Below are positions 18,315-44,580 of a stretch of 64,000 nucleotides of DNA, piece after piece. The translations under genes and the position numbers were made by a program. Source of the stretch: Sphaerolaimus hirsutus (lineage: Eukaryota > Nematoda > Chromadorea > Monhysterida > Sphaerolaimidae); assembly GCA_964036195.1 (NCBI GenBank), contig OZ038456.1:19282001-19346000 (forward strand), given 5' to 3'. Numbering within the stretch: the stretch's first letter is position 1; each line of letters opens with the position of its first letter. The notes under the pieces were generated by a model. It did no database searches and was not told the DNA's origin. It saw only the letters and a list, made by a program, of their open reading frames with translations.

Positions 18315-18351
<37 letters not shown>

Positions 18352-21300: not shown

Positions 21301-24300
21301 TGCCTCGGAATAGATAGATAGCTGAGCGGCCTCCGGGATAGATAGATAGCTGGCCGATTTGGGGGGGGGCAGCCCCCCCCCCCAGCCCCCTCCCCTAGGA
21401 GACCACTGGGTTTATGGTTGGAAAGAAATTAGGCCCCCACCATAAAATTATTCCCATGTAGTAGGGATGACCGATGTTTTTAAAACCGCCCTTTTAAAAA
21501 AAATGTTTAAAAAACAGGCATCGAAACAGTTTTTTTTAAACATCAGCAAAATTTTACAAATGTACTAGGTATTTTGCAATTTTTGCGCGCAAGCGCGCAA
21601 TTTCACCAGTGGCGTAGCCAGGATTTTTAAGCGGGGGGGGGGCGGATTGTATACGGAGGCCGGCGAACGGGGGGGCCCCCCCCCTAAAATTTCGCCTAAA
21701 ACGATAGCGGAATGGACGTATGGCGCTGACGCCATTTGTAGGCGCCGCGCCATGGCGTTGGCGTTGGCGCCAGTGGCTACAATAGAACAAAATTGTACCT
21801 AAATGTATGAAATTTGGTGCAAAATTTAGCAATTTTTAGTGGTATTTTACACCTCTGAAATGCAAATAAGTGTGACAGAAATTTGAAGGTGCGAAATGCG
21901 CGCTTGCGCGCAAAATTTTTGCCGTCGACCTATAAAATCGCCATAGAAAAGTGTCATTCCCGGCAACTTTTCTGTCTGGCCCGGGAAGGGGGGGGGGCGG
22001 CCGCCCCCCCCGCCCCCCCCTGGCTACGCCACTGAATTTCACCTACACATTACCATTGGTGGTTGTTTTCATTGGTTTTCGGGCATTTTTAGTGTGAAAG
22101 CTTCCATTTGTTCATGCTATTGTGTAATAATAAGCTGTGATATGTTAGTGTAGTATATAATATCCATCTAATGTGCTCCTACAGGGTCGTTAAAAAACAT
22201 TTTTTGGCCATACCCCTGTAGTAAAGGAATGGAATGGCGTATTTTGTCTGTGGCCCGGGAATTGGGGGCGGGGTGTGGCCGCCCCCCCTCGGGTTCAAAC
22301 GATATATCGTATCGAATATCGGATATCGACCATTTTTTAATATCGAATATCGATATCGAAAATTTTGAAAAAATATCAAATATCGATATCGAAAATTTTG
22401 AAAAAATATCGAATATCGATATCGAATATCGACCATATTTTCGATATATCGAACCTGTATAATGTCCTTAATTAAGTTATTATTTTTGTTTTGAGATATT
22501 TGTGATTAAGTTGATTTGCTTATAGTATCTAAGTTGATGAGTAAAAGTAAAGTATTTAATGTCATCTTTGTTGGAGTGCTTACTCCAGATTTCTTGTATT
22601 TGGCTTGGCCACATACCTACTGAACTACCTACCTCAAATTTGAAGCCAGAAAATGCTGATATGCTGCTTTTTTGCAACATGCCCTTAATCAATTGGGTTA
22701 TAAGTATGAATTGTAATATCTACCAATTTTTGTTTGTCTGATACAATTTGATTTCGTCATGTTTTTTCTTCGATTTTCTCATTCTGACCATTGTAAACCT
22801 TGTTAAAATCAATTGTACTTTTCAGTAAAGAGATAATCAACCATGTTTGCAACCATTTGAAAATACAATATGCTGCTTGAAATATGCCTTGCTATACCAA
22901 AAGCAAAATATCGAAAATATCGAAATATCGATATCGAATATCGACCATTTTTTAGTATCGAATATCGAATATCGATATCGAGGGTCCATATCGTATCGAA
23001 TATCGATATCGAAAATTTTGAAAAAATATCGAATATCGATATCGAAAATTTTGAAAAAGTATCGAATATCGATATCGAAAAGTGATATCGTTTGAACCCT
23101 AGCCCCCCCCCCCCCCTGGGTACGTCCTTGCCTAGTTATGTTCCAATTGTTATCATTTTTAATTATAATTCCAGGTGGGACAAGTGCGCGATGTGCGAAT
23201 AATCACAGATACAAAAACCCGCCGTTCGAAAGGCATTGGCTACGTGGAATTTTGGGAGTTGGAAGCGGTCAATGCGGTGAGCATTTTTTAGGTTTTATAG
23301 ACTTTATATTTTGATTTTTTGTGGACGACTCGTTGTGATATTAATCAAATTATTTTGCTTTTTTTGTGTAATCGATACCGCTGTTCAAATACTTAGCGTA
23401 ATCCGATACAGAAATCTACCGTAATCCGTAAAATTTAGTGACGTATTTCCCCGCAGACTCGCTGAGTGCCCCGCACAGGCTCTAAATTCATGCCATGTAT
23501 GGTAATTGTTACAGCTACTTTTTCTGTGTTATTTTAGTGCCGTTTTCTCGACATTTTTGAGCCGAAAAATCACTCATTTGTGCCCGTTTTTATGGCGCAG
23601 ACACGCTGTGAATGTGGCGATATGTGAATCGGCTGGCAAATGCAATTTTTCGACATTAATCTCCCAGAATTTTTTGTTTTCTAAATTTTCCTGTCCCTAA
23701 AATTACAGGTGGATGTGAGTGCGCACTGGCTGTAGCGTATAAAAATTTCCCGTTCGCTTATGCGGAGATTTTTTTATAGGGTACTTGCAGTAAGAAAAAA
23801 TTGCCGTTTGTAAATATCACAAATGAATTTTGACTGGTTATGTGTACAACGCGAACCGAACCTATTTTTACCCAAACATATTTTAATTTTGATCGATTTT
23901 CTCAACTTGGAAAAATTCTCACATCAAATCCATTTAAAGCCGGTTTAAGAATCCAACCCAAATCTTGAAAAAAATCAAACACGGAATAAATTACCATATC
24001 ATCGCATAATAATCATCAAAAATCCTTCTCATCTCCTACCCATCAAAAACCCCTCAAACCTAAATTTTTCCTCAAAATCACCCCCCCCCCCAAACACAGG
24101 CACTGATCAAAAATGGGCAAAAATTGAACGGCGCCCCTCTGGTAGTCCAGCCCACGCGCGCGGAACGAAATCGCGCTTCAGAAGCTGCCGCCAGATTTGC
24201 AGCTAAAGCGGGGGCGTTTTCTTCCGACCCACTTGGCGGCGTGCCAACTCATGGACCGATGAAGGTTGGGGGGGGGGGTATTTAAGATGGGTTTGAATTA

Positions 24301-27300
24301 GAGCAGCTGTTTTGGACTGGAATCGGGACCATACATTTCATTTTTTGGGCTTAGTGGAGCTGTTTTTTGGCATTGGAGGGTCAAATTAAGAATTTCATCA
24401 CTCGGTGTATTTTCCACCGGGATTACGGTATCATTTTCCCCCATACATATGTAGTAAATATATAGCGATGTTTATGAGAGTACACAGCTGAATATATTTC
24501 TCATATCGAATATATTTCTGCATCGAAAAGATAAGTATGGAAGGCTAAAATCGAAAAGTAGTTTTTACCGACCCCCTCCCTATTGTGCGAAACGGTGTGG
24601 CACTGGAAATATTCCAATATACCAGAAATTACACGCAATAATTGTCCATTTACCGGTACGTTACAGTGAATTTTTCCGGTCCGGTAAACCCACGGTTACT
24701 CACACCGATTTTGTAGAAACTCAAAAATATTTATGTACTTCACTTTACTGTATTTTTTTCTTTGCAGATTTACATAGGAAACCTGAACCCTAACATAACG
24801 GAGGAAATGTTGAAAGGCATATTTGAACCATTCGGGAAGCTGATCACAGTGCAAGTAATTGTCGACGATAATGGACTTTCCAGGGGTTATGCCTTCATCA
24901 CGGTTGGTTTGTTTGATAAATGGTTTATGGTACATAGTTACGTTTACTCGATAAATACGTATACTCGAGTACTGCGTAAATACGTTTACGTTTCCTCCCG
25001 GAAAAAACACCGGAACTCGCGTACAGAAAGCGTAATTTAGAAAAAATTTAGGGGTGCATAAAAAACAAAAACCAGTCAAACGAATTAAAACGGATGCAGA
25101 AATGGCAGCGGAAATGATAGAAGTTGCGATGGGTAGAGAAAGCGACGACCATCCCTTTCACTTTCTTCCAAGGTACAAAATAAAATAAAAATAACTTTTA
25201 CGTTTTCCCTAAGTAAAAATACTGCTATTTACGTTTAGTCACCTTTTACGCAGCGTAAAAGTAAAAAAAATTACTTTACGTTTTCTGTACTCAGGGGTGT
25301 GTGAAAATAAAAGACTTAACGTTTACCTCCACTTTGAAAGAAGTTCAGTACCTTCAACAACTCTGTTCTGGAAGAAAGTTTTAGGGACCAAACAGTTTTC
25401 ACGTATAATTGTTTTAATTACAAAAAATGGTTACCTATACAGTTTAATACGGGGGGGGGCTCAGACCCCCTCAATTTTTTTCACTATATAGGGACGGAAA
25501 TGCGTTTTGGCGCTAGCGCCATACAAAGGCGCCACGCCATAGCGCTATTGGCGTTGGCGCCAGCACCAGGAACCGCTTTTTATGTATGTAAATATGCATG
25601 CATATACAGCGAAAGTCCCAAAACTGTGTTTATTTCGAAGGATATTGGTTTACAGGGACCGATCCGCTGAAAATACAATGCATGAGGAAGATTGATGCTT
25701 GCGCGCAAAATTTTTGAGAAACATCTAAAAATATGCAGAAAAAGTTGCATTTTCCAGGACTTTTTTGATCTCACCCTGGGAAGGGGGGGGGGCTGCAGCT
25801 CGCTCCGCCCCCCCTGGATACGTCCTTACCATAACCCTCGAATAACACCCCCCCTCTCCCATTTTTACAAAACTACCACAACCCCCCAGTTCGCCCAAGC
25901 CGACGAAGCAAAAAAAGCGATCGAACAATTGAACGGTTTCGAACTCGCCGGGCAAGCCATGCGCGTGGCGCCGGTGCAAAGTCAATCTGGGGTGAAATCA
26001 TTGGCTACTGTGTCTAATGAAGAGGATTTGGATGATCCTGAGAAAAAGATTGAGATGAATACTACTGGGAGGTTTGTGTTGTTTGTTGTTGTTGTTTTTT
26101 TTGGGGGGGGGGGGTTAGAAAAAGAAACTTGAAATTTTTCTTATCGCATTTATGAGCAAGTCTGGTGCATACTTTTCGCTTTACGTCACTTTATTCATAG
26201 AAATACGGTAATTCTGTCGATTGACATGTAGTCGTATCAGTATCAGTCGCTAGCATTTAATATCGAGTTTTATAACGAAGTTTGAATAAAGATATAGAAA
26301 TTTTTCAATCAATTTTAGCTATACTGGAATTTATTTAATATATTTGAGATCTTATTCGTAATGTAAGGTGTCATTTATTGTAATACAAAAACATTATTTA
26401 TGTCATTTCACATTTTGTGTGATACCTGATAAATTTCTGTCTATCCTTTAAACCCCAATCACAATCCCACTTACCCCCCAACAGGCTGCAACTAATGTCC
26501 AAACTGGCCGAGGGCACCGGTCTCTCCCTGCCGCCCGGCGCCCAGCAAGTGGTCACCTCCTCAGCGGCAGCGAGTGCCCAACCGCTACCCAATACAACCC
26601 AGTGCTTCGTGCTGTCCAATATGTTCGACCCTGATAGGTGGGTGCGCAGTGGGTTTTGGGATTCAACTGAGTTGTGTTCAGCAGAAATTTGAATTAATGA
26701 TGGCGCGCCTTGGGTACGAGAAATTGGTCCAAGGTCCCAACGGACGCCGTTAGCGTAAACAGCACGGCCAAACAGCTTTGAATGCATTTGAGTTTACTAG
26801 AATGAGGTGACTGTCAAGTAGTTGACGGAAATAAAAAACTCGAGTATGTTTTTCATTTCTGTCAACTAGTTGACAGTCACCTCATTCCAGTAAACTCAAA
26901 TTTAGCTTGTTTATGAATTTTCAAAATTTCTATCAAAACTAGTGTGTGTAGGTAATGGAATTTGCGGCGGCAGCGGAAATTACGCTTTCGATGCATGCCG
27001 ATCAAACCCGTCAAACTCAATATGTAAATGGGCCAAAAAATTCTATCGCACAATCTCTGACGGAAACCCAGTCGGCTACTGAACATAACTCTAAACCGCC
27101 GGTTGTGGATGGGTTCAATGGGGTTTTAGATTGTGGGAAGGTTAGGGTTGGGTTTGAGTGACATAAATCGATGTTGATTATCGATATTTTATCGACAACG
27201 TTTTTTATCAGGCATTTTGTTTAGATATGGACCAGTTGAACCATTTGGACATAATGATACTATTATCAGAGAACATTATTAGCTTTACTTTTGTCCGTCT

Positions 27301-28285
27301 GAAACGTTATGTATATTCACATGTTCACCTTCTGTAAACAGATCTCTTTTCAAATTTCCTTTGAAAATCTATTTTAAAAATTCAAAATATTCTGCTGTAA
27401 AGTGACACATAGACATCATCCATAGCCACTTTTTTCGTGCCATTAATCTCAACATCCAATCAGCATTGACTCCGCCCCCAATTCGCAGTGAAACCGACCC
27501 GAATTGGGAGAAGGAAATTCGGGACGATGTAATTGAAGAATGTCGGAGACACGGCGGCGCTACGCACGTGCACGTGGACAAACTGTCGAAAGAGGTTCGT
27601 GTTTGGAGGGGATTTTTTATTTTGGGTTTGATTACCGTATTTTCTTGATTAATTTTCCCTTGGATAATTCCTCTCATAAATAATCCCCTCTCTTGAATAA
27701 TCCCCCCTGTGAGGCGAGTGATGAAAGAAAACCCCTCCTCGAATAATCCCCCCTTTAGGTATGATAAATTTGTTTTTGCCCAATTTTAAGAAAAACGGCA
27801 GGTTTTTTGTTTATAATGCATTTTGTAAAAGAGATTATTATTGCGTGCAGTAATGGAAAATTTGATATCAAACCATCAAAATCAATGAAAACAACCCCCA
27901 AAGTGAAAGTGCGTGGAAAAATAAAAAACACTACCTAGTGAATCAGTACTGAGCCTTACGGCTGCCGTTTTTCAGTTTTTCTTCGTTGAAATGCTTTCCA
28001 TTCTCTCGTTTTAAAAAACGGTTAAACGGTTTGAAAAACTTCGGCCATCCCGACATGTTCAACAATTTTGTGCACATCTTTTTTCAACCATTTAAAAAAA
28101 ATTTCACACAGGGCTACGTTTACGTGAAGTGTCCAACAATCGCATCTGCAGTCGCGTCGGTGAATTCTCTACATGGACGATTTTTCAGCGCTCGCGTAAT
28201 TCAAGCTAATTACGTTCCGATTAATAAGTATCACGAATTGTTTCCGGAAAGTTTCATGGCGCAGCAAATTTTGATGGCCGTTTGA
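17384..28285 (+). CDS. RBM39: RNA-binding protein 39 (CAPER-alpha), splicing factor and coactivator
   Basis: Seen: exons 17384-17445, 17739-17801, 18462-18692, 19027-19206, about 19568-19672, 20145-20286, 23175-23276, 24100-24264, 24768-24902, 25890-26071, 26485-26637, 27489-27594 and 28112-28285. The phases close to 1,800 nt (599 aa; human is about 530). Order: acidic/Lys N-terminus, RS region (about 55-210), MSVEERDARTVF entry to RRM1 (about 238-316; RNP2 VFCMQL, RNP1 KGIGYVEF), RRM2 (351-425; RNP2 IYIGNL, RNP1 RGYAFIT), linker with LAEGTGLSLPP, and a C-terminal UHM (about 492-595) with GYVYVKCP and an R-F-F motif. Known role: nuclear spliceosome-associated factor whose UHM binds ULM motifs (e.g. 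of U2AF and SF3B1). Start choice: ATG 17384 is the first in frame after TGA 17324-17326; ATG 17767 is an in-frame alternative. The end of exon 5 is uncertain. Confidence 0.93.
18317..18349. repeat. (AT)n microsatellite
   Basis: About 16 uninterrupted AT units in RBM39 intron 2, 113 bp before exon 3. Confidence 0.95.
18462..19672 (+). CDS. RBM39: RBM39 arginine/serine-rich region (exons 3-5)
   Basis: Exon 3 encodes Lys/Asp/Ser repeats (DKDKSRDKDKGKD), exon 4 Arg/Asp repeats (RDRDRNRDRDRNRERDR) and exon 5 Arg/Gly/Pro repeats (SPYRGRGGSPYRG). Exon 4 is ended at 19206 rather than 19199, because only then does exon 5 read in this frame from an acceptor at 19567. In exon 5, donors after 19633, 19660, 19672 and 19687 are all in the phase required by exon 6, so the exon end is unresolved. 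The GC-rich tract 19570-19720 differs sharply from the surrounding introns. Confidence 0.7.
20486..21408. mobile_element. hAT-like element, CAGGGGTCTC family, with nested insertion
   Basis: Ends CAGGGGTCTCTAAG and CCTAGGAGACCACTG, with an exact 8-bp TSD GGTTTATG (20478-20485 and 21409-21416). Interior words: GATAGATAGCTGA and TCGCTCCTCCGG. Diverged fragments of the same family lie near 29780-29830 and 31585-31650. Confidence 0.88.
20704..21140. mobile_element. hAT-like element, CAGGGCCGTATCCAGG family, copy B2
   Basis: Ends CAGGGCCGTATCCAGG and CCTGGATACGTCCCTG, with an exact 8-bp TSD ATATAACC (20696-20703 and 21141-21148). GGCGCC words occur at 20965-21030. Nested in 20486-21408; the 437-bp length matches the copy at 56329-56767. 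Confidence 0.92.
21607..22034. mobile_element. hAT-like element, CAGTGGCGTAGCCAGG ends, copy B3
   Basis: Ends CAGTGGCGTAGCCAGG and CTGGCTACGCCACTG, with an exact 8-bp TSD AATTTCAC (21599-21606 and 22035-22042). It interrupts the dispersed repeat also seen at 9655-9755. Interior GGCGCC words lie at 21725-21770. Confidence 0.92.
22289..23101. mobile_element. hAT-like element with ATATCG arrays
   Basis: Ends TCGGGTTCAAACGATAT and ATATCGTTTGAACCCTA, with an 8-bp TSD GCCCCCCC (22281-22288 and 23102-23109). The TSD is low complexity, so it is weaker evidence than the others. Both ends are arrays of ATATCGA words separated by a unique middle (22457-22900). It sits inside the C-tract of another element. 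Confidence 0.8.
25449..25829. mobile_element. Left-truncated GTATCCAGG-family hAT-like element
   Basis: The right end CCCTGGATACGTCCTTAC and the interior (GCGTTTTGGCGCTAGCGCCA, ATGTATGTAAATATGCAT) match the copy at 56329-56767. The left terminus is missing. It ends about 60 bp before RBM39 exon 10, near that acceptor. Confidence 0.7.
26787..26900. repeat. Hairpin repeat in RBM39 intron 11
   Basis: Arms TTTGAGTTTACTAGAATGAG and CTCATTCCAGTAAACTCAAA; GGTGACTGTCAAGTAGTTGA pairs with TCAACTAGTTGACAGTCACC. About 45 bp per arm with two or three mismatches and a short loop, giving a strong stem in the transcript. Confidence 0.85.
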
Positions 28286-28800
28286 AACTTGAAAGTTGTG
28301 TCGTTTCTTTGAGTGTTGTGGTTATTTTGTTGTTGATGTCTTTTTTCTTGTTTTATATAAGCACAGTGGATCTTTTATAAGGAAACGGGAAATTTATGTG
28401 GGCACTGCGTTTTCTGATTGATTTTTTACTTGGGAAAAAAATTGATAAAAAATCGGTGGGAAACATTGATGAAAATTTCACGATCGGGTAGAACAGAATA
28501 AGGATAAATGTGTGGGGTTTTTTTGTCGAATATTACTCATTGTATCTGCACAAATATTGATTACCTATCTGGTTACAATTTTTTACTTTTTTGTTGTCAG
28601 TGTTCCGTGTATCACTTCTGTAGTATTTTAAATTGTACACAAATCATGAATAACTACCATCTACCCATAAACTAGATTTTGGGCTCATTTGTAAATTTTA
28701 ATTCATGATACTTGGTATATTTTGTTCATTATCTATCTATATATAACACTCCTATGTATTTAGTCGTTTCAAAAAATCAACATAAAGAAGAAAAAATCCT

Positions 28801-31880: not shown

Positions 31881-32845
31881 TTTGTTGGCACGGCGCCAGG
31901 CGCCGGTTTTTTTCCAGGATTTTTAGTTGGTTTTAAACGAAAATTCGAGCCGTGCGAAAACTGGGGCATGCGCCTCGCAGATAGGAACGCAAAATGACAG
32001 ATAAATTTGTCAAGTAAATAAATAACAAATGTTTACTTATTGTTGTTCAAATGTTGAAAAAAAACAGTGGCCAATTTTGTTTAAGTGCACAGTGAAAACT
32101 TTCCTTTGGATTTTATTGGATTTGAGCCACATTCCATTTCACAAGCTTTCCTTTCGCATGACTGTCAGTCACTATACACATCACATGACATTTTACGGGA
32201 CGCTGTACTGCCCGGTATAAATACGACCAAATGGGATAGCTCGTGGCTGATGAGAAAATAACCCAATAGCACCCAAAAAAACCCAATCAAATCCCAAACA
32301 CTGAGTTAGGGGGTTGTAATCCTCATTTCAACCCCCCAATGCACACATATTTTATAAGCACAGTTTCATGTATGTCGCTGTGCGGCACGATCGATGTGTC
32401 CCCCTGGGGCCAAATCCAATTGGAACGTAATGCGTAATTGTAAGGCGTCTGACACGCGAGCTTATCTGGGGACAGTCCCAGATCCTCGAACCCTTACTTT
32501 ACATTTGTCGCGGCAATTGGCACTGCATGACACTTTACATGACATTTGAAACTTTACTTTACACTTTACAGGGTCTGAGATTGGCACCTGATGTCAATCC
32601 CGCGAGTGGAGAAGTAAAAAACCCATATATGAGTAGTGAGAAGTGGAATGGGAAGTTAAAAGTCAAACGCGAAATAAAGTTTTGAATTTTCTTTTATCGC
32701 TTCTAGCATTGCTTTGCTTTTAACTTTTTCGTTTCTATTCCACTTCTCACTTCTAAAATGGTTTTTTATTCCCCACTTGCAAAATCCATCCCTCCGCAAT
32801 CTCAATGCTATCTCTCCTATCATTCGCCTTACACATGCGCCCTAC

Positions 32846-32958
32846 CTTCCAATTGGGTCTGGCACCTGGGGGTAATGCGGCATGGGTCTGTGCGCAGTGG
32901 GTTTCCTCTGCGCTTCTTGCACTTCTTGCATGTCTTTTTTGAAGCGTTTATGCCTGAT
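32846..32958 (-). CDS. Possible orphan exon of unknown protein
   Basis: A 113-bp stretch with acceptor CGCTCAG| and donor GGAAG|GTAGGG on the minus strand. One frame reads RHKRFKKDMQEVQEAQRKP and continues with a Pro/His-rich tail ending PDPIGR. A second frame is also open, which lowers confidence. It could belong with the His-rich frame at 31707, but the phases do not join directly. Confidence 0.3.
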
Positions 32959-33041
32959 CTGAGCGGTTGGGTGGACTTTGGGTTTTGTGGGTTCGGGTTG
33001 AGAAGTTTTTTTGCATTTTTTTGGGCGTACCTAGTGTGAGG

Positions 33042-33537
33042 CAGAGTTGTTAGAATTACTGAACTTTTCTCAAAAGTATATGTAAATGTAAATATTATTT
33101 TTTTACTCACCACAAAGTATAGAAAATGTAAAATACTTTTTTTACTTGTACTCATGCGCAGATGTGAGTAAATACTTTTCTTCCCAGGAAAATGTAAAAG
33201 CGAGTACTTTTGTCCTGGAAAACGTAAAATCTACTACTTTTTACGTGTGAGAGTGAGTTTTACGCTGGAAGACATCAATAGATGTCGTTTCTAAGTGATT
33301 ATTTAGTATTTTTTAGAAAAATGATGTGATTTCTTCAAAATTTCTTGTTTTAGCAACCGAAAATTGTGATTTTAGCTACAAAAAATACATTTTCTCTGTA
33401 CGTGTGTACTTTTACACGTAAATGTACGCGTAAAAGTGAGTACATTAGTTTTTTTCAAAAGTATATGTAAATGTATTTGCCGCGTACTCGCGTACGCGTA
33501 TTTTTCGAGTTAATGTACGTACATGTTAACAACTGTG
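33042..33537. mobile_element. hAT-like element, CAGAGTTGTTA family, copy D3
   Basis: Begins CAGAGTTGTTAGAAT and ends ATGTTAACAACTGTG; flanked by GTGTGAGG and GTGGGAGG (7 of 8 identical). Interior words: AAAATGTAAAA, CGTACGCGTA and GTGAGTA. Confidence 0.75.
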
Positions 33538-33976
33538 GTGGGAGGCTGACCACCTTGTGGAGGTTCAAGGAAAGATTTCAAGGGGTTTCTACGGGACATA
33601 AATGTCGCACGAGTTTTTCAAATGTTATGTGAATCGCCCGGAAATCTATCTTTTCGTCGAGTCTTTTTTACGGGGTGCGCGACTGGCCCCTGGGGTTTAC
33701 TGAAATTGACTGGGTGCGAGGAGACTTGGTAAGAGTTAAAATATCAGTTTGTAAAACTGTTCAACAGTCAATACAACAAATCCGAATAAGTCCCTTGGGG
33801 AGTTATTTTTCGTCATATTTTTCACTGGGGGTTGTATGTATGTATGTATTCATTGCTTTTACCGATTTTCGATACTGGGACTACTAATGAAAATGTCATC
33901 ATATATGAATCCCATCGGTTGTGTATGCTCTACACAGAGAACGTCACTAAAGTTTAAACAACGCAATACGGTTGTA

Positions 33977-34040
33977 AATAAAATATCACAACGTGAAAGA
34001 ACATCACAACGTGAAATAATCACACGTGAAATTATCACAA
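33977..34040 (-). repeat. Short direct repeats at the LINE 3' end
   Basis: On the plus strand the unit ATCACAACGTGAAA recurs about three times, with decayed versions (AATCACACGTGAAATTATCACAAT). Several LINE groups end in short 3' tandem units instead of poly(A), so this may mark the tail. Confidence 0.5.
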
Positions 34041-34148
34041 TACTGGGACCGGTGTCGACCATATTCCGCGAGGAGTGCCAGAAGAAAAGCAGCCGGCGCG
34101 GTGTAAAGAAGAAGCGTATTTATGCTCATGCGTGAGCTGTCAGATAAG

Positions 34149-37100
34149 TTATCTATCCGACGCGCCGTGCTTAAGGCGCATACACTGCCATTCACAGTGT
34201 TTGATACGCTTGGATATCAAGCTTGAAATCATTTCGCGATGATTGTGACATCTAGCATCCGATGTCAGCCAGTGTAATTTGGCTGTTGTTGAGTCCATGC
34301 TTGGAGCTTGACAAGGACATTTATCGCCTTGTTTTTCAAACAAATTTGCGTTTGCATGGCGTGTTTTTGAGCACGTCAGTAAAATATGCTTGGGTGTCAA
34401 TATCGCTCCACCTGAGTCACGCCCACAATCCATGCAGCGCGTTCCATTTGGAATTTGAAAAGCGTTATACCGAGCCTGTAGCCACCATTTATGGCGACCC
34501 AAAAAGCTGCGTATATGTAAAACATCATCCAAATCATGCAGTCGGTAAAATTGACTTTTCTTATCCGTCATCAACGTCCGCTGCCGATCCATACATCTCA
34601 CCCTTATCAACTTTTTGAGCCAAGCCTTGTTCCTCGGAGCTCCATCGGTTTGCGTGAAATTATAGAAGCGCGCATAAATCGCGGCCCTGTCTGGGACACA
34701 AGTGCCCATCAAATCCCGCTGTAAAGCATTTGAGCGGCGTGGAAGATTTTCGCACAAGTGATCATATGCTGATCTCGTCAAATTTCCATTTAGTCCACTC
34801 AAGTAGCCGCAATACGCAATTGTATGCTTTCTAATCCAATCGGAGGGCTTGACACAGCCAAGGTCGAACCAAATCGCATCAGAACACGTGGTTTTAAGCA
34901 ACCCCACACTTTGCTTAACAGCCTTTAGAAACGATTTATCAATCGCTTCTAACTGTGGCCGCCGTATACCTGTCACCTCCAGGCCGTACGCGATCGCGCT
35001 TTCCGCATATTGTTTCCATACGAAATCAACACACCAGAATTTCGCATCTGTCAAATTCGCAGTGTTTTGACACAGGTTACTCAGCCTTTCTGCTTTCCGC
35101 ACGGCAGTTTTCCTGTGTTCTTCAAAGGTGTCACGTGCACTAGTTAGGGTCACGCCGAGATATTTTATTTTGTCGGTTTCTGAGATAAACATGTCTTTTT
35201 TGTGATGGTCGAAGCCCAGCTTCCATTTTTTGGACATGTTTGCCTTTTGCCCCCATCTCAGAACAAAACTCTTCGTGGCGTTAATTGCCACATCCCAATC
35301 CCAACTCCATCTGGAAAAAATATCCAGCGTGCGTTGCAGATCAGATTCTGTATTGCTCAAAAAGCAAATATCATCGGCGAAGAACAGAGCCGGTATTTTA
35401 TGTGGCCCAAATTTGGCCCCCACATCTGCCGCCTCTAAGTGGAAGCGTAAATCTGCCAGGTAGATGATAAAACCAGTGGGTGACCAACAACATCCCTGTC
35501 TTAATCCGATGGGATATTCCATTTCCTTGCTAACATGGTCGCCGAATGTCATTACGCATTTTTGGTTTTTGTAGGTATTTGCGATCGCTTGCACAAATTT
35601 CGATGGGTACCCAAAGTGACCCATTTTAGCCCACAATTTTTTCCTATTCACGCGGTCAAATGCCTTTACCGCATCGACAAAGCATGAGATTAATCTTCCC
35701 TTTGTTTTGTCCGCGTGCCTTTTGCATGCCTGCATTATCACGACGTTATCCAATGTTCGTCGCTTTCCACGAAATCCGCCCTGAATGTCACCGAATCCGT
35801 TATTTTTCTCGAAGGCGTCAAGCGTGCGCCTATTCAAAACCGCCATGTATAATTTCATTACATTACATCCAATTCCCAGAGTGCGATAGTTTCTGATATC
35901 CATCGTACTCCCCTTTTTGTGCAAAAGTACCATTTTGCACAGCTGTTTATCGGGGTCAATTCTGCCTCCGTTGAACCAGTCATTAAACAGCGTAACAAGG
36001 CAAAGGATTCGTGACTGGTCCAGAATCTTTAAAACCTCATGTGGCATTTCTGTTGTGCCAGCAGATTTTCCGCCTTTGAACTTTTTGATTTCCGCGCGAA
36101 TTTCCACTTCCGTAATCGGTTTTGTTAAATCAGATTTCGATTCCGGGCTAATAATGTCCCCGCCAAACCATTTTCGCACATCCATATTTTTGGATCCTGG
36201 GTTTGGAGACATCACAATGTCCCATGCCCGTTCTAGTTCCTGTTGTATTTCCGGTTCAGTGCAAACTAGCCCCGCCTCATTTTCCAATGCAAAGCGCCTC
36301 GATGAAACATCCTTCATTCCATTCATGTGATGGTAAAGGCGCTTGACTGCCGTGCTGCAGTTATATTGCAGCTGAGTTATGAAATGTAACTCTTTTTCAT
36401 CCTTTCTTGCGCATCTGTATTTGCGCAAATGAAGCCGTGCCAGACGCAGCCGCAAAATGGCCTCTTTGTCCATCCAATTTTTTTTTAAATGCCGCCGTGA
36501 TTTATTAACCTTCCGGGACAGCTTTAACTCGTAATCGTCGTATTTTTCCCGCTTTTGCTGCCCGCCCTTGGGTCTCATTGGCGCAACCCTATCAGCTAAA
36601 TCATGAATCGAATCGTTGAAACTCGGATGTGAGTTCCCTTTGTTCAGCGGGTTATCGTTCATGAGTTCCGACAGCTGTTCCAAGTGTATTTTCTTCCGTG
36701 AAATTTTCGCCGAGTGGGCTGTTACATCGCGAGCCTCACTATCCGGCCAATGCAAAGTTAATTCCAATGCGTGATGGTCACTCGACATCGGACTTGATGT
36801 CCCATCGTCGTCTATGCGACCACTCATCAGTCGCGTGTGCCAGCTGTCCAAGAGCGCCAGATCAATAATCGATCTACAATTATGGCGCGTGAATGTCCAC
36901 AAACCAGACATTTTTTTGTTCAGTAATTCTAAGCCGGATTCTTTGTACCAATCGCGGACTTCTCTACCGTTTGCGTTCAATGTCGCAGTGTTGCCTGGTA
37001 TTCCCCATTTACCGGTCCCTATGTGGCCGTTAAAGTCTCCGACCAATAGTGTTTTGATTTTTTTCGATCTGTTTTTCGCAATCACATCCGTCAAAGTGTT

Positions 37101-37703
37101 CAGAATCGACTTGTTATTTTCCATTATTGATTGCGAGCGGTTTGCCTTGCCATTGTTTTCCAGGTAAACTAGCGTCACACCTATTCTACCCGTTTCGCTT
37201 CGTAAATGAACACTCATTATGTGATTTTCGTGTCTATTGGGTGAGACATATTCACCCCGCCACTTCACATGTGTGTAAATCAGCAGACCGCCTGTTTTTT
37301 TTGCGTCTGACTTGACACGGATAAATCGATCATAGTTCTTCAAATGCGGTGCATCCACGCCGGAAAGACATTGCGCCTCACATAAGCAGATGACGTCATA
37401 TTGCGTCATGCTAGCGACTTCTCGTAAAGTGTTGAAATTCCCGCGTAGTGATCTAACATTCTGGTACAAGATTGTTAGATCATTTCCCTTTTTCACGGCC
37501 TCAACCTTTCTCCGACTACACTGTGCCAAAATTGCCCCTGTCGCTAGGCTTGCTGCTATCGGCACGTCTGATATTTTTACGTTATTTGAGATTTGCGGTT
37601 TGATCGCAAACGTCGGAGCACAGTGCAATACTAGCACGCAGATAAGTACTTTAAACGCAGTAAATTCAATTCTAGACTTCCAGTTCACGCAAAAAATCTT
37701 CAT
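34149..37703 (-). CDS. LINE ORF2: endonuclease and reverse transcriptase
   Basis: From ATG 37703 the frame encodes 1,184 aa and ends TAA at 34149-34151; an upstream extension to 37742 has no ATG. The APE-type endonuclease shows the N of YQNVRSL, the E of CLCEAQ, GDFNGH (about 223) and SDHHALEL (about 308). The reverse transcriptase shows KMVLLHKKG, RNYRTLGIG, FVDAVKAFD, LRQGCCWSP and the catalytic FFADDICF (about 776). A Cys/His motif CMDC-x12-H-x4-C follows (about 1089). These enzymes nick target DNA and copy the element RNA there. Odd point: the N-terminus MKIFCVNWKSRIEFT is followed by the hydrophobic run FKVLICVLVLHCAPTFA, like a signal peptide ending in A-x-A style, which is unexpected for a LINE RT. 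A second hydrophobic patch follows at about 45-60. Confidence 0.92.
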   Translation of the reverse strand: MKIFCVNWKSRIEFTAFKVLICVLVLHCAPTFAIKPQISNNVKISDVPIAASLATGAILAQCSRRKVEAVKKGNDLTILYQNVRSLRGNFNTLREVASMTQYDVICLCEAQCLSGVDAPHLKNYDRFIRVKSDAKKTGGLLIYTHVKWRGEYVSPNRHENHIMSVHLRSETGRIGVTLVYLENNGKANRSQSIMENNKSILNTLTDVIAKNRSKKIKTLLVGDFNGHIGTGKWGIPGNTATLNANGREVRDWYKESGLELLNKKMSGLWTFTRHNCRSIIDLALLDSWHTRLMSGRIDDDGTSSPMSSDHHALELTLHWPDSEARDVTAHSAKISRKKIHLEQLSELMNDNPLNKGNSHPSFNDSIHDLADRVAPMRPKGGQQKREKYDDYELKLSRKVNKSRRHLKKNWMDKEAILRLRLARLHLRKYRCARKDEKELHFITQLQYNCSTAVKRLYHHMNGMKDVSSRRFALENEAGLVCTEPEIQQELERAWDIVMSPNPGSKNMDVRKWFGGDIISPESKSDLTKPITEVEIRAEIKKFKGGKSAGTTEMPHEVLKILDQSRILCLVTLFNDWFNGGRIDPDKQLCKMVLLHKKGSTMDIRNYRTLGIGCNVMKLYMAVLNRRTLDAFEKNNGFGDIQGGFRGKRRTLDNVVIMQACKRHADKTKGRLISCFVDAVKAFDRVNRKKLWAKMGHFGYPSKFVQAIANTYKNQKCVMTFGDHVSKEMEYPIGLRQGCCWSPTGFIIYLADLRFHLEAADVGAKFGPHKIPALFFADDICFLSNTESDLQRTLDIFSRWSWDWDVAINATKSFVLRWGQKANMSKKWKLGFDHHKKDMFISETDKIKYLGVTLTSARDTFEEHRKTAVRKAERLSNLCQNTANLTDAKFWCVDFVWKQYAESAIAYGLEVTGIRRPQLEAIDKSFLKAVKQSVGLLKTTCSDAIWFDLGCVKPSDWIRKHTIAYCGYLSGLNGNLTRSAYDHLCENLPRRSNALQRDLMGTCVPDRAAIYARFYNFTQTDGAPRNKAWLKKLIRVRCMDRQRTLMTDKKSQFYRLHDLDDVLHIRSFLGRHKWWLQARYNAFQIPNGTRCMDCGRDSGGAILTPKHILLTCSKTRHANANLFEKQGDKCPCQAPSMDSTTAKLHWLTSDARCHNHREMISSLISKRIKHCEWQCMRLKHGASDR

Positions 37704-37798
37704 GTAATTGCCGAAAAACGAACACCAAACAAACACATCCAATAAAAATTTTTTACCAGTTCATAGGTGATCAATTCCTGAATGTTCCAAAAAAACCC

Positions 37799-40700
37799 CT
37801 AAAAATACGTATTTGGGAGGGGACAAAATGCACGATAAAACATTTCCAAAAAACTGTAAAGCGATAAATTCGACGGCAGATATCTCTGTAAACGTAAGAG
37901 ATTAAAGAAAATCAAACAATCACATTTAGAAGCAATACACGCTGTCAAATGGTCCCCTAAAAAAATCTGCCCAATTCCTCCGCTCTCGGACCGGTGCACC
38001 ATAAAACGGGTGGCATCTGCGCGCGTGCAGTTGAATGCGTATTGGTCAAATTCAACAACCAACAGCGTTACTTGGAAATATACCAAGTTATAGCCACAAA
38101 CCTCAGCGGCTGTTGCGGCGCGGCATACACAGCCGGCGCAGGCAGTCCCTAATATCGTTCGCCCACACCCCCTTGACGCTGGGGACGACCAAACCGGCCT
38201 CCAGTCTCTGCTCCAAATCGACCCGCGCCTCGGCCTCGGCCGCGCCAACCCCGCCCACGATTCTGATAAGGGGGATTCTGATAAGGGGGATTCATTAATG
38301 TCAAACGGTTTGCCATACATACTATAGCGGTTCTTAAGTGGAACCAACGGTTCATTCAAGCTCATTTCCTTCACCAATTCGCGCGTTACAATCGCGTCAT
38401 ATAAGTGGGAGGCGTGAATGCCATCCCTTTGACAGCCAAACAGATAAGCGATCTGTTCGTTGTTCAGTTCGCAAAACCGCATCGAGTTCTTCGTCAGCCA
38501 CTCGATCGGCCGCAGTGCCGTCACAAAGGGCACGTCCCGGAAGTAGCTCCAAACCAGGTACTCCAGGTTTCGCACCCATTGCAAGGTGTCGTCAATGCTG
38601 CGCTCGTCCATGCGCCGAGACAGGGGCGCGTGCAGCAGTGGGCTCACAATGCACACATAAATTTGTGCATCGCGCATCTGCCAGTTGCTCATCCAGGCCC
38701 GCAGGCGCGTCAGCATGTGCAGCATCGGGTGGCACAGCGTGGCTGTGGCGTGTGCCTCGTCGAAGTGGTTCATGCTCTCCAGCGTGGCTAGGCTATCGAG
38801 CACGCCCTTCACCAGGACTGCGTCGTAGCGCCTCATAGGGGCGTAGCAGTTGATGACCGTGGGGATTATCGACCCCATGCGCTTGCCGTGAAATGTGCCA
38901 CGGAACAGCTTCATTTCGCCCGCCCAATTTCGATTTTGGGTGAGGCGCTGGTATTCAATTGGCAGGCGCGCCGTTGTGCTATCTCCAATGGTCAGCACAA
39001 ATTTGGATGCGCGTGGCAGGTCGATGTAGTGCCTGCGCCAGGGCGGCTGATCGTAGAACACATTCAGCGGCCGAGTGAACTCTCGGTGCGGGGCATCCGG
39101 CGCCCAAGCAGTCCCCACGCGCACATGCCGCAGCATGTCGGCCACCGAAATCTCGTTGTTAGAGATCTGAGGCACGCTTACTAGCGTGATATCCATGCGG
39201 TGGCGCTCGCTGCGCATCGATCTTTGCAAGCAGGCTCGGACTTCCGTTTTTGTTTCCTCGCTCAGATCCTCTGGCTGGATGTAAATCGGTCCCGGTTGTT
39301 CAGCTGCTGGTTCGGCAGCGGCAGCCTCGGCCACGACCTGGGCCTCGGCCGCACAACCATCCTCCGGCGCGAATATGTCCAACGGCGGCATATTTTCATC
39401 CGCTTCTTCCAGAGCCCGCACATCGCCGGCGGGTTGTATGTTGCCCTGAATGTCCTGGGCCTGATGCTCAATATGTTCGGGCTCTGGCGAGCTTGCGCGC
39501 TCGCCGTCCTCGTGATCGGCCAGTACTTCGGCGGATACATCCAAGTCATCGTCTTGGACGTTTTCAACAATTTGGGGCCCCACGTTCTCGTCACGAACCT
39601 GAAAATTTTGTTGCGACAGTGGTTGAAATGTGACGCTACGCGAACTGCCCCTTACGTTGGCTCGGCTGCCCGCCCGTAGCGCCGCCCCGCCCGGTGGCTG
39701 TAAATTCAAGGTTTCGAATACATAAATATCAGCAATACGCGCATTACTCTGCGTTTGGTTGGTGCTAACATTGTTTTCGGCCAAAAGTCCAATGTGACTG
39801 GATCTCCCCGACTCAGGCTGAGCCGATGCCTGTGTTTCGCGGGCGCGTACAAGCTGCCCAAAGTGCGCAACATAGCGTACTTTGTGGGATGGTTCGGTGT
39901 AATCATCCGCCCATATTTTTGTGTCCATGTAGATCTTGAAATCGCGGTCATTTAGCCGCCGCGGACCCACTTTCTCCTCAAAAGTGTTTAGCAGCTCCTC
40001 CCTGATGTCCGTCATCGCTTCGCCCAGAAGCCCCATAAATGGCTTGAGCCAGAACTCTCGCTGTTCATTTGCGATATCCACCTGTGTGTGGATCATATGC
40101 AAATGTGCGCCTAAAATATCGCAATTTTTGCCAAATTTTAAACTTCTTTGCAGTACCTCGGCCTCATATTTTTCCGCCCCGATCATTAAGGCCGATCGGA
40201 AATCCCATGGCGCCTGGGCATTAAATGGATGCCTTCCGCATGAAACGAGGCGGCGCCATTTTTTTTCCCCGTCTGCTTCCACGTATGTTCGGACCAGGAT
40301 CGGCGCCAGCGTTTTGCTGCAGTCGATCGCCCCCCGTATCTGTGTTATATCACAGATTGCTCGTATATACGTTACGAGTCTGTTAGCGGGTTGCAAACCA
40401 ACCACATCCAGAAGTGCCTTGTACGCTGTTGAATCTTTTGCACCTTCCACGCTCGAGATGTCGTCCATGGGGAACCAATGATCCCCTTTCGCAATGTTGG
40501 CCCACAGCCGTTGCGTGTCGCGGTACCAGTCGTACCAGCGCTCATCGAAACCGGCACCACTATGGCACCGGTACGCCGCTGACACGCGCGCCAATTCGGT
40601 GTAATCATGATCAGATGCACCGCAGTGCTCCATTTGCAACTGTAAGTAGGTCGTGTCATAACTACAAAAAAGTGGCGCTATAATCGCATTTAAGCATCTA

Positions 40701-41524
40701 ACCCGCATCAAAGCCAGCATCATGCATGGATATGGATCGTCACAGTGATCCAGCATGACAGGATACGGCCACGTCAGACTTAGTTGTTCTGAAAATTCAT
40801 AGGCCGCGAATTTTATCGGTGGCGTGCGGGCCGGCGGTGTTTCGCAGGGCGATGAAGTGTCGCTTTCGAGATCGCTAACCCGATCTCTCAAGTCGGAATA
40901 GCGTTTTTCGGACTTGTGAGCCCGCCTTTCCAGAGCGCACATGCGGCGTTCATTGTCCATCAATACGGACAACACGAAATCCATGTCAGCGAGGCATGTG
41001 TAGGCATCCTCGCCGTCCTTTTCAATGCCGCGCCTTATATCGCGTCGGGCAGACCTCAAAGTGTCTTCCTGCGTGCGCTCTTCTGTTTCGCGCATGCGCT
41101 TTGGAGTTTTTGCCGTGTCTTCTTCGGCCTTGCGCTTTTTCGCGGCCAGTGATGCCGAGCACGCCCCACTGCTTTCCTGCATGGCAGTTGGCAGCGTTCC
41201 AGTTCGGAATTTTATCGAACGTACCCTTAATTCGGGCAAGGCATGTCCGTATATTTGATCATGGACATCGACAAAATCACAAGCGATTATGTTCATCACC
41301 GTGAACACAACAAGTGCAGTAACGAGCAAGAACCCACAATGTGCGAAAACTCGCTGTTTCGCTTTTAAACCAACCGCGGGTTCTTTGTCATTCTTTTTCG
41401 GTACATTTTCAGGCATCGGCTCTAAAAGCGAGTCGTCCTCTTCCATTATGGCCAAATTTCCGTCCTCGCTCGCGTCCTCTCCGCGATTTTTCTCCGGGCG
41501 TCCGCGTTCCTCGTCGCCAGACAT
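37799..41524 (-). CDS. LINE ORF1: membrane segment, coiled coil and SGNH-hydrolase-like domain
   Basis: From ATG 41524 the frame encodes 1,241 aa; the open frame extends upstream to 41731 without an ATG. Order: acidic/basic N-terminus, hydrophobic segment HCGFLLVTALVVFTVMNIIA (61-80), basic cluster KKRKAEEDTAKTPKRMRE, charged probable coiled coil (about 145-235), a long unassigned middle with an acidic Glu/Ala/Pro linker, then an SGNH-hydrolase-like region (about 840-1050) with GDSTTARL as block I and DGIHASHLYD as block V. SGNH/esterase ORF1 proteins are known from CR1/L2-type LINEs; the membrane segment is not typical. Near 38280-38320 the neighbouring frame becomes RG-rich and ends at 38149, suggesting the last 165 codons here could be a frame error. 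Confidence 0.75.
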   Translation of the reverse strand: MSGDEERGRPEKNRGEDASEDGNLAIMEEDDSLLEPMPENVPKKNDKEPAVGLKAKQRVFAHCGFLLVTALVVFTVMNIIACDFVDVHDQIYGHALPELRVRSIKFRTGTLPTAMQESSGACSASLAAKKRKAEEDTAKTPKRMRETEERTQEDTLRSARRDIRRGIEKDGEDAYTCLADMDFVLSVLMDNERRMCALERRAHKSEKRYSDLRDRVSDLESDTSSPCETPPARTPPIKFAAYEFSEQLSLTWPYPVMLDHCDDPYPCMMLALMRVRCLNAIIAPLFCSYDTTYLQLQMEHCGASDHDYTELARVSAAYRCHSGAGFDERWYDWYRDTQRLWANIAKGDHWFPMDDISSVEGAKDSTAYKALLDVVGLQPANRLVTYIRAICDITQIRGAIDCSKTLAPILVRTYVEADGEKKWRRLVSCGRHPFNAQAPWDFRSALMIGAEKYEAEVLQRSLKFGKNCDILGAHLHMIHTQVDIANEQREFWLKPFMGLLGEAMTDIREELLNTFEEKVGPRRLNDRDFKIYMDTKIWADDYTEPSHKVRYVAHFGQLVRARETQASAQPESGRSSHIGLLAENNVSTNQTQSNARIADIYVFETLNLQPPGGAALRAGSRANVRGSSRSVTFQPLSQQNFQVRDENVGPQIVENVQDDDLDVSAEVLADHEDGERASSPEPEHIEHQAQDIQGNIQPAGDVRALEEADENMPPLDIFAPEDGCAAEAQVVAEAAAAEPAAEQPGPIYIQPEDLSEETKTEVRACLQRSMRSERHRMDITLVSVPQISNNEISVADMLRHVRVGTAWAPDAPHREFTRPLNVFYDQPPWRRHYIDLPRASKFVLTIGDSTTARLPIEYQRLTQNRNWAGEMKLFRGTFHGKRMGSIIPTVINCYAPMRRYDAVLVKGVLDSLATLESMNHFDEAHATATLCHPMLHMLTRLRAWMSNWQMRDAQIYVCIVSPLLHAPLSRRMDERSIDDTLQWVRNLEYLVWSYFRDVPFVTALRPIEWLTKNSMRFCELNNEQIAYLFGCQRDGIHASHLYDAIVTRELVKEMSLNEPLVPLKNRYSMYGKPFDINESPLSESPLSESWAGLARPRPRRGSIWSRDWRPVWSSPASRGCGRTILGTACAGCVCRAATAAEVCGYNLVYFQVTLLVVEFDQYAFNCTRADATRFMVHRSESGGIGQIFLGDHLTACIASKCDCLIFFNLLRLQRYLPSNLSLYSFLEMFYRAFCPLPNTYF

Positions 41525-41589
41525 TTTTAAACCGAAACTGCGATTTCGACTTTTTTCAACTTTTTCCTTTTTTGCGATATCAGTGACTA

Positions 41590-41835
41590 ATACTAATTGG
41601 CACTGTGCCAGTCTTGGCACACTGCCAAGTAAGTAGTTATGCCAATTTTGGCAGATCGCCAATATGCCCTCTCTCTCTACTTGAGAGCTAACGGCAGAGC
41701 TGCTAGCGTGTTTGAGGAATGGTACATACAATGTAACACGCTCTCGTAAAACTATTAGCGAGGCACTATTCCAGGCTTTAAATCAAGCCCTGTTGTGTCT
41801 CAATCCGACACAGTTTGGCACTCTGCCAAAAGTGA
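41590..41835 (-). promoter_or_regulatory. LINE leader with repeated TTGGCA/TGCCAA palindromes
   Basis: At least three imperfect palindromes occur: TTGGCACACTGCCAA (41615), TTTTGGCAGATCGCCAA (41647) and TTTGGCACTCTGCCAAA (41813). They are spaced irregularly just upstream of ORF1 and resemble full NF-I-type sites (TTGGC-N5-GCCAA) or short RNA hairpins. Function is inferred only. Confidence 0.4.
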
Positions 41836-42252
41836 TCAATGAATCACCTATCGACACTTCTTCGCAGTTCGCGTCTTTACACAGTGCAGCGTCGAATACG
41901 TTTCGGTAGTTAACCGCGACGTGAAATTCCTTCCAGGTCCAATACGTTAGGACACCAGAGCCAGTGCTCAATACCTCACTGGTTTTGGCACTTGTCCAAA
42001 AACGACCTCACTTGGTCGTTTTACCTACCAGTCAAACAAAAAAGGTCGAAAACAAACAAAAACGCCAACCTGGTCAAGCTAACAGAAAGCAACACCAAAA
42101 CTCCCACTACCTTCCGCAGCAAACCTCTAATTTGATCCTTTGTCCGCTCCTTTAAGAAAAAGAGCTCGCTCACTTTTTTCTTTTTCCAGTTTCTTTTCCA
42201 GTTTCCAGGTTATTCGAGTGGTATTTTTCTCAGCTAGACTATCTAATCTAAT

Positions 42253-42423
42253 TCATTGCCTAACCGGAAGCCAAATCAGTGCGACAACGACAGAAACGGC
42301 CGCCAAAATCCCGGCCGCTATTAAACATCCGTATAATTCCGCTGCGAAGCCCATTTTCAGCCGGATATCGTAGCCTATGTACGGTTGCATATTGGTCGCG
42401 CCTCCAGTCAGTTTATCCGACAT
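42253..42423 (-). CDS. LINE small upstream ORF (ORF0): 56-aa single-pass membrane protein
   Basis: ATG at 42421-42423 (minus), TGA at 42253-42255. The 56-residue product begins MSDKLTGGATNMQPYIGYD and then has a hydrophobic helix LIAAGILAAVSVVVALIWL near its C-terminus, ending PVRQ. It lies on the same strand as ORF1 and ORF2, about 0.7 kb upstream of the ORF1 ATG, inside the GC-rich element-like sequence. Composition and the clean helix argue for a real protein; no homologue is recognised. It is below the usual ORF length cut-off. Confidence 0.55.
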   Translation of the reverse strand: MSDKLTGGATNMQPYIGYDIRLKMGFAAELYGCLIAAGILAAVSVVVALIWLPVRQ

Positions 42424-43361
42424 TTTTTCCGTTTTTTTTGTTTATTGCGAGTTGTTTTCGAGTTATTTGCAGTTATTGTTAGTGTACTTTCTTGAAGGAA
42501 GTATTTAGTTGCTTTATGGGTAATTTCGGGTACCCGGGGAGTTCCGGAAGTAGCGAGTCGTTAATTACTTTTCGCATGAAGCTGAGTAACATTTGTCAAC
42601 TGTTCTGCTCCTTCCTCGCATCCTGTGAAGTTACCGGGTGTGCATTCTCAAAAGTTACTAATTTCAGACAAAGTTTCAGATGCCTGATATAAATTCCGAT
42701 TGGTATTTCATATTCCTGAAAGTGTTTACTGGCCATTTTATGCTTTACAGGCCCTATCAATTGACAGGTAATTTGAAGCCTTATCACAAGTTGGCTTGGT
42801 CATGGTCAGACATTTCACTTTCCATAAAAATTTCAATCCATGCTCTCTTCAAAATGTCTTAAATTCTCGCCTCTAAACCGGTGTGTGTAGCGCCATTCAT
42901 CTACTCACCACTTAAATATAACTTTACTTGTCACTTTTCCACCCCACCTCACCCGGGCAGCTTCCACATAAAGCCGGATTATTGTCCCGCAATTTCGTGA
43001 ACAAACTGCTACGCATTCTTGGTGTGCTCGTCTTACACATTTGTTTACTTATCACTTTCCAAAAATTATCAGTCCGTAAAGGTGTACAAAAGTGGAAATA
43101 TGCTTAAATTATATAGGTACCTACATGTACATTTTGTGACAACATTATACTGATGGGTAATGGACATTTGAGAGTGAATTTGCACTGCGCATTAGTGTAA
43201 ATAGTTTCCTGTATTTTCACTTTGTTCGATGTTAATAAAATATTCATTTGATAAAACCGCAGAAAGCATAAAAGTTTCACAGAGGGGCCAATTGTTGAAC
43301 GTAGCATGCATATGCTTAAATTAACTAATTTTGCCCTGGGATTAAAATTTTCGCCAGCCAC

Positions 43362-44580
43362 CAACGATGGAAAGAACACAGAAATTGAACACAGAAACTC
43401 ATTGAGTTTCTGTGTTTTTGTTTTACACAGAAACACGGAAACTCACAAATTTTGAAAAACTCAAAACTCAAATGAGTTTTTTTTTGGAGAACACAGAAAC
43501 ACAGAAACACGGAAACACAGAAAAGTTTTTTTAGTTTTTTTAGTTTTTTCAGCGAAGTAGTTGAATTCACATGAATTCAGCTAAACTAATTAAACAAGAT
43601 GTGATATGCATGTATAGTATTTGTGAAAAATATGTACATGAATGTATTCATATTTTATTATGGAACAAAGAAGAAATTAAAGATTGCATGCACAATTGCA
43701 CATATCCTGATGGAATTGACAATTTCAGTTTCAACATGTTTCAGTATACCATATTACCTCGAATAAACCCCCCTCAAAATGGAATGGCAAAATAATAGGC
43801 CCCCCTCCAAATACCCCCCTCTGGGATGATGTACATGTAAGATGTAAATATTTATATGGTGTATTTATTACTGCTAATTAGCATCACAGCTACACATATG
43901 CTGTACTAGATTGTGCAGCTATCTACACGTTTATTTCAAATATATCCTGTTTGTACATTTATAACCTGTTTTGGGTATGTAAATGCCTACTATTTACCAT
44001 GATCCTTATGAAATTTTCTGACAAAACAATAACCCCCGCCCCCTCAAATAAGCCCCCCTGTCAAAATTTGCTGGTGAAATAATAAACTCCCATCTCAAGG
44101 TAATACAGTAGTTGTAGTGAAAATCAATTCTGTAGCCTTCCATACAGTGCACATCCATTGAAGAATTTTGGAGTACTGCGTAAATTGTCATTTCTGGGCA
44201 TTTTGTTGATGCTGGTGTTGTGATGTGGAGTGGATGTCCTCATTGTGGACATTTTTATGGACTTTTTTGACACTTGAATGAATACACAGATGTTATGTGG
44301 GGCTAAAACATGTGCAAAACCAATATATTATAAGAAAACCACTGTTTCCACATCAAAATGCCATAAATCCGAATTTTTTGGATAAACTTGAGTTTTTTGG
44401 GGAAAAACTCGAGTTTTTTAGTAAAAAACTCAAAAAACTCGAGTTTTTACAAAAAACACAGAAATAAAAACAGAGTTACTCAAGTTTTTTTTGAGAAAAA
44501 AACTCAAAACACAGGTATTCATTTTTGAAAAACTCAAAACACAGAAAGTGTTTTTTTTTTGGAGAACTTACCCATCGTTG
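43362..44580. mobile_element. hAT-like element, CAACGATGG family, copy 3
   Basis: Begins CAACGATGG and ends CCATCGTTG, with an exact 8-bp TSD CCAGCCAC (43354-43361 and 44581-44588). It is in the opposite orientation to copies 1 and 2, with the same CACAGAAAC-word ends and a CTCGAATAAACCCCCC fold-back core at 43747-44110. Confidence 0.92.

Follow-up and report, generated by a model that had tools for sequence, protein, structure and literature searches.

Membranes may take part in assembling the ribonucleoprotein (RNP) of a long interspersed nuclear element (LINE), as is suggested by ORF1 esterases that bind lipids and by a dependence on ESCRT. Could the proteins of such an element themselves be built to span a membrane? 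The question is raised by an element on contig OZ038456.1 of the nematode Sphaerolaimus hirsutus (GenBank assembly GCA_964036195.1), which lies in a window of 64,000 nucleotides (positions 19,282,001 to 19,346,000 of the forward strand) and for which a sequence-only reading had proposed a membrane-type segment in each of three encoded proteins. The element occupies 42423-34149 of the window on the minus strand, as do all of its features described below, and all results for it rest on this one copy. The order and strand of the three open reading frames (ORFs) were as that reading had given them: ORF0 (42253..42423; 56 aa and a stop), ORF1 (37799..41524; 1241 aa as read) and ORF2 (34149..37703; 1184 aa, uninterrupted), all open and each in a different phase. 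Because ORF2 combines a reverse transcriptase with an APE-type endonuclease and no long terminal repeats (LTRs) were seen, the element is an APE-type LINE; direct-repeat families in 32500-44500 numbered 59, and the 20 largest were 14-44 nt long. The insertion is probably young and the element recently mobile, since ORF2 has remained open over its 1184 codons.

Hydrophobic segments of the three proteins

Hydropathy was scored as the maximum 19-residue Kyte-Doolittle mean of each ORF and compared with 2000 shuffles each and with 196 unrelated ATG-to-stop ORFs of 40-90 aa from elsewhere in the window. ORF0 carries a lone hydrophobic segment close to its C-terminus (residues 33-53; 42265..42327), followed by three residues in a tail-anchor-like arrangement. 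Its maximum of 2.76 was equalled by 2 of 2000 shuffles of the same protein and by none of the 196 small ORFs. The ORF1 segment (residues 63-82; 41279..41338) comprises 20 residues without charge and reached 2.39 at residue 64; none of 2000 shuffles of residues 1-150 got that high, and 22 of 2000 whole-protein shuffles did. A second, weaker stretch in ORF1 (residues 268-287) scored just above 1.6. The corresponding segment of ORF2 (residues 16-34; 37602..37658) had a maximum of 2.08 at residue 16, which was matched by 531 of 2000 shuffles of residues 1-60, by 130 of 2000 whole-protein shuffles and by 8 of the 196 small ORFs.

On a biological insertion scale, the sums were -2.8 for ORF0, -0.9 for ORF1 and +3.2 for ORF2. 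The hydropathy controls and this ranking together indicate that ORF0 and ORF1 carry credible membrane helices, for which insertion is predicted; with a sum of +3.2, the ORF2 segment does not resemble a stable transmembrane helix and is at best signal-peptide-like. Thus the single-helix protein of 56 aa and the 20-residue hydrophobic segment of ORF1, both described in the sequence-only reading, stood against shuffles, and ORF0 also against the small-ORF controls. The broader claim of a membrane-type segment in all three proteins was well supported as a sequence feature for these two and weak for ORF2. That all three proteins are anchored in membranes is an inference from such segments, and the extracellular particle that had also been suggested is speculation.

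The ORF0 segment lies in a stretch whose codon content was frame-specific, the ORF0 frame scoring +10.8 versus -3.0 and -13.2 for the other two, and its third-position GC content (GC3) of 0.554 was near that of ORF1. Codon content at the start of ORF1 was likewise frame-specific (+17.7).

The leader between ORF0 and ORF1

The spacer of 728 nt from the ORF0 stop to Met1 of ORF1 (41525..42252) is depleted of AUG and predicted to fold strongly. It contains one ATG, at 41727, which opens a frame of 16 codons, versus a mean of 9.4 in dinucleotide shuffles; none of 500 shuffles held one or fewer, and the Poisson value for this outcome at 9.4 expected is 0.0009. Among 1187 overlapping 728-nt segments from the rest of the window, none had one or fewer (lowest 3, mean 14.6). 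The depletion was spotted first and tested afterwards, in a test that took in eight trinucleotides and four regions. TAA and TGA were mildly low in the spacer (10 versus 15.7, with 18 of 500 shuffles as low, and 13 versus 17.4, with 40 of 500 as low, respectively). No loss of ATG was found relative to shuffles in the ORF1-ORF2 spacer (2 versus 1.9 expected) or in the 3' region (7 versus 6.2), and the 152 nt preceding ORF0 were uninformative (0 versus 0.3). The predicted fold of the spacer had an energy of -233.9 kcal/mol (z -4.68), and 0 of 20 shuffles folded equally well.

A leader that ribosomes cross by scanning or reinitiation needs just such an AUG-free stretch, from the ORF0 stop to Met1 of ORF1. 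Because the depletion starts at the ORF0 stop, ORF0 appears to belong to the same leader, which supports its placement as the first cistron on the mRNA that carries ORF1. The same pattern supports translation of ORF1 from Met1, ahead of its putative membrane segment; if Met1 is the start, residues 63-82 lie within the ORF1 protein. The starts of ORF0 and ORF1 have AAAAATGTC in common.

The spacer also holds a cluster of the palindrome TTGGCN5GCCAA, presumably an NFI-type site, with three exact and two one-mismatch copies between 41597 and 41999. Nine exact occurrences were found in the window versus 0.09 expected, and further sites lie at 24233, 29740, 45920, 52043, 57238 and 61422. The spacer copies could be promoter sites or RNA hairpins.

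Domains of ORF1 and ORF2

The N-terminal tail of ORF1, upstream of the hydrophobic segment, is acidic. After the segment come two basic stretches, KKRK (129) and KRMR (142), which we take to resemble nuclear localisation signals, and then a heptad pattern at residues 193-222 (40859..40948). The heptads were called as a coiled coil by a simple heptad score rather than a dedicated predictor, and they place the coiled coil behind the hydrophobic segment and ahead of the esterase-like part, the arrangement that the sequence-only reading had described. The region that follows, residues ~225-560, matched no family and is joined by an acidic linker to a set of SGNH-like motifs, GDSTT (847), VLVKGVLD (903) and DGIH (1034), at 38405..38986. 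By the block consensus that we assume for SGNH enzymes, these resemble blocks I, III and V, with the Asn of block III replaced by Leu.

The GDSTT and DGIH pair occurred in 15 of 10000 shuffles, yet one of 14 control proteins had it as well, and searches of ORF1 against Pfam, NCBIfam and PDB gave no match to an esterase. The SGNH-like domain that had been proposed thus holds at the level of motifs, as a lead. Single-sequence AlphaFold2 models of the esterase-like part and of the ~225-560 region had mean predicted local distance difference test scores of 37.7 and 35.9, too poor for a fold search. A match of residues 351-428 to hexokinase-2 (three PDB sequences, E 0.01) had no profile support and was judged to be chance.

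Searches for protein relatives covered proteins with 5-residue words in common with the query and a length of 0.55-1.75 times that of the query. No relative of ORF1 was found among 6920 candidates at E <= 0.001 with words from the first 500 residues, or among 1585 candidates at E <= 1 with the esterase-like part. ORF2 had 14 relatives among 6930 candidates, all at 20-30% identity, the best at 25% over 64%. Viral and genome contigs, searched with ORF1 and ORF2, held no relative of either.

The C-terminal end of ORF1 differs from the rest. Residues 1180-1241 had a synonymous-codon score of -13.9 with a table from ORF1 and -6.7 with a mixed table, with a GC3 of 0.344, and the three frames are mixed at ~38300-38060. 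The true C-terminus of ORF1 is thus uncertain. A 15-base unit is repeated 2.3 times at 38259-38293, within a stretch (38300-37799) where three frames compete and one is RG-rich; this RG-rich reading of another frame (~38290-38150) resembles an RNA-binding tail, but codon scores do not favour it. GC3 is higher in ORF1 (0.50-0.73 up to residue 1180) than in ORF2 (0.47-0.49), as if their histories differ.

ORF2 matched Exo_endo_phos_2 (7.9e-12) and RVT_1 (2e-27) in Pfam and had ten PDB matches, among them R2 and L1 ORF2. The APE-type endonuclease spans residues ~76-325 (36729..37478; limits set by eye) and includes QNVRS, CEAQ, GDFNGH, SIIDLAL and SDHHAL; the reverse transcriptase domain, with FADD present, lies at 35145..35921, and a C-terminal Cys-Cys-His-Cys motif at 34371..34436. 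Met1 is the sole Met ahead of residue 99, and since the endonuclease begins at about residue 76, an AUG-started ORF2 protein (ORF2p) with a whole endonuclease includes the hydrophobic stretch. ORF2p may instead start at a non-AUG codon or come from a spliced RNA, avoiding that stretch. Residues 1-72 have a GC3 of 0.472, close to the remainder of ORF2 (0.484-0.488), and the synonymous-codon score of residues 1-40 was near neutral (1.2).

Sequons numbered 12 in ORF2 versus 7.4 (sd 2.5) in shuffles and showed no excess in ORF1 (5 versus 5.0). A motif scan found no PTAP, PPxY, KDEL, KKxx or CAAX motif; YPxL-type motifs are present at ORF1 254 and 265 and at ORF2 730, and a furin-like R-x-[KR]-R occurs once in each protein (ORF1 1097, ORF2 645). 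No family, fusogenic envelope proteins included, matched ORF0 or ORF1 better than E 0.1 in Pfam or PHROGs, or ORF1 in NCBIfam.

The junction of ORF1 and ORF2 does not allow a simple frameshift fusion, because the ORF2 frame opens only at 37760, downstream of the ORF1 end at 37799. Within 37801-37700 the ORF2 ATG shares bases with a TGA of the ORF1 phase (ATGA), a possible trace of coupled translation, but a TAG at 37801-37799 has by then closed the ORF1 frame. The presumed 3' untranslated region (33850..34148) contains a 15-base unit with CACAACGTG in 3.8 copies (33981-34040). Its exact end and a target-site duplication were not found: 43500-42424 and 34148-33600 share no word of at least 11 bases (longest 10). 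The element ends are not fixed.

Possible assembly at a membrane, its alternatives and the surrounding DNA

The account that we favour, tentatively and with somewhat less than even confidence, is that the ORF1 protein (ORF1p) spans the membrane of the endoplasmic reticulum (ER) or nuclear envelope and serves there as the scaffold on which the RNP is gathered, with the ORF0 protein (ORF0p) as a small membrane partner and reinitiation across the structured leader. One tricistronic mRNA would express the element. Ribosomes would translate ORF0 first and then scan or reinitiate through the long, AUG-poor, structured leader to Met1 of ORF1, so that ORF1p would be made with its single membrane-spanning segment. 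ORF0p would be a small membrane protein, probably tail-anchored. Anchored in the ER or nuclear-envelope membrane, ORF1p would oligomerise by way of its coiled coil and would there bind and gather element RNA and ORF2p in the manner of a membrane-bound Gag. The ORF2 segment may bring ORF2 synthesis to the same membrane, which is the weakest step; membrane insertion of ORF2p is doubtful, and a signal-peptide role is doubted because cleavage of a signal peptide would leave the enzyme across the membrane from where it has to act.

The nearest published idea among the matches listed is ZfL2-1 ORF1p, which has a coiled coil and an esterase, binds negatively charged phospholipids and liposomes, and for which RNP assembly on a membrane surface has been proposed (PMC3905857). 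Esterase ORF1s make up type IV; among the Jockey superfamily elements of one study, they were reported for the vertebrate L2 and CR1 groups only (PMC4120745). Like the LINEs with type IV ORF1s (CR1, L2/ZfL2-1, RTEX), the present element is an APE and reverse transcriptase LINE whose ORF1 has a coiled coil followed by SGNH-like motifs, here at motif level. Unlike them, it has an integral-type hydrophobic segment, an ORF0, an extra region of ~350 aa, a much longer ORF1 and a replaced block III Asn, and there is no detectable sequence relationship. The word "transmembrane" occurs 0 times in the main text of PMC3905857 or PMC4120745.

L1 and Zorro3 of yeast need ESCRT (PMC5478143), and this interaction counts in favour of the membrane scaffold. 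As in human L1 and Zorro3, whose RNP is thought to meet a membrane, the present RNP would do so; those elements act through an ESCRT late-domain motif, and neither PTAP nor PPxY was found here by the motif scan. In bdelloid rotifers, LTR and Athena retroelements have captured transmembrane and esterase ORFs, a likeness to the small transmembrane ORF and esterase-like motifs here; those elements differ in being LTR or Penelope-like, with the extra functions in separate ORF3s, and their GDSL-like ORFs are described as lacking coiled-coil and transmembrane domains (PMC5408684). Among the matches listed, no LINE with a transmembrane ORF0 or ORF1 is described in titles or abstract openings, and in the sources cited here the membrane link is surface binding or a host complex. 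If the present account is true, helices encoded in ORF0 and ORF1 would make the membrane question directly testable, and membrane-spanning LINE proteins would bear on the passage of LINEs between species.

Several observations weigh against the membrane scaffold. By the positive-inside rule, the charges that flank the ORF1 segment (+2 before, -3 after) would put most of ORF1p in the lumen, together with the basic stretches that we labelled as resembling localisation signals. Such a topology would conflict with RNA binding and with those stretches, and this is the main mechanistic difficulty; with most of ORF1p in the lumen and a cleaved ORF2p secreted, RNA binding and target-primed reverse transcription in the nucleus would be difficult to explain. 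Over the stretch that includes the ORF1 hydrophobic segment the codon score dropped to +1.1, over that of the ORF2 N-terminus (37760-37580) it was -6.6, still the best of three frames, and the synonymous-codon score of ORF0 was weak, being equalled or beaten by 12 of 196 control ORFs. None of the 14 distant relatives of ORF2 had a window of at least 2.08 anywhere in the protein (highest 1.97), although several begin near the endonuclease and may lack their N-termini. The N-terminus of ORF2 that had been called signal-peptide-like keeps that appearance by eye and in its hydropathy of 2.08, a value near chance. Human L1 was found to need neither glycosylation nor Golgi function, with ER entry left open by the authors (PMC5478143). 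The evidence also comes from a single copy.

An ordinary cytosolic LINE is a possible but less probable account. ORF0 would then act purely as a regulatory upstream ORF, the ORF1 segment would form a helix, buried or associated with lipid, in a mainly cytosolic protein, and the hydrophobic start of ORF2 would be an incidental leader with no secretory entry. This account is helped by the reasoning that AUGs are selected against in any reinitiation leader, irrespective of the ORF0 peptide, by an ORF2 segment that chance could produce (8 of 196 controls and 531 of 2000 shuffles of residues 1-60), and by the position of the basic stretches after the ORF1 segment. The hydrophobicity of the ORF0 helix, far above that of other small ORFs (0 of 196), and the 20 uncharged residues of ORF1 speak against it.

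Partial decay of the ends of ORF1 and ORF2 in this copy, with non-coding DNA read through to give some of the hydrophobic or tail segments, is unlikely. The scores and GC3 of ORF1 residues 1180-1241, the mixed frames nearby, the near-neutral residues 1-40 of ORF2 and the -6.6 of full codon content at 37760-37580 would fit it; the coding-like scores at ORF0 and at the start of ORF1, the GC3 of ORF2 residues 1-72 and 1184 codons without a stop argue otherwise. A bolder version of the scaffold, a LINE built like a membrane virus, with all three products inserted in or delivered to the ER or nuclear envelope, a membrane-spanning, Gag-like ORF1p that bears an esterase-like head, and an RNP wrapped in membrane for nuclear entry or intercellular transfer, is a long shot. 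About as improbable is a secretory or enveloped element, in which a type II ORF1p exposes its coiled coil and esterase-like head to the lumen or the cell exterior, ORF0p is a small viroporin-like protein and the RNP exits in membrane: the predicted N-in/C-out charge bias, the signal-peptide-like ORF2 start, the ORF2 sequons, the furin-like sites and the rotifer transmembrane and esterase ORF3s (PMC5408684) suit it, but no envelope family match, excess of ORF1 sequons, PTAP or PPxY was found in the searches above, and genomic DNA would, we reason, be out of reach of an ORF2p exported into the lumen.

Elsewhere in the window, an RBM39-like gene with several exons lies on the plus strand at 18300-28300. 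The best match of one exon was to RBM39 structures (5e-20), and another encodes an RRM whose best match was poly(A)-binding protein (3.8e-23), with RBM39 at 1.7e-12. Upstream of the element, at 43361-43600, is a repeat of ~240 bases with an 8-base tandem unit, and its two other copies, at 2247-2483 and 5830-6065, are 92-93% identical to it. Tandem units of 74 bases rich in GCGCCAAGCGCCA are found at 4355-4612 and 61802-61939 and form a satellite-like family.

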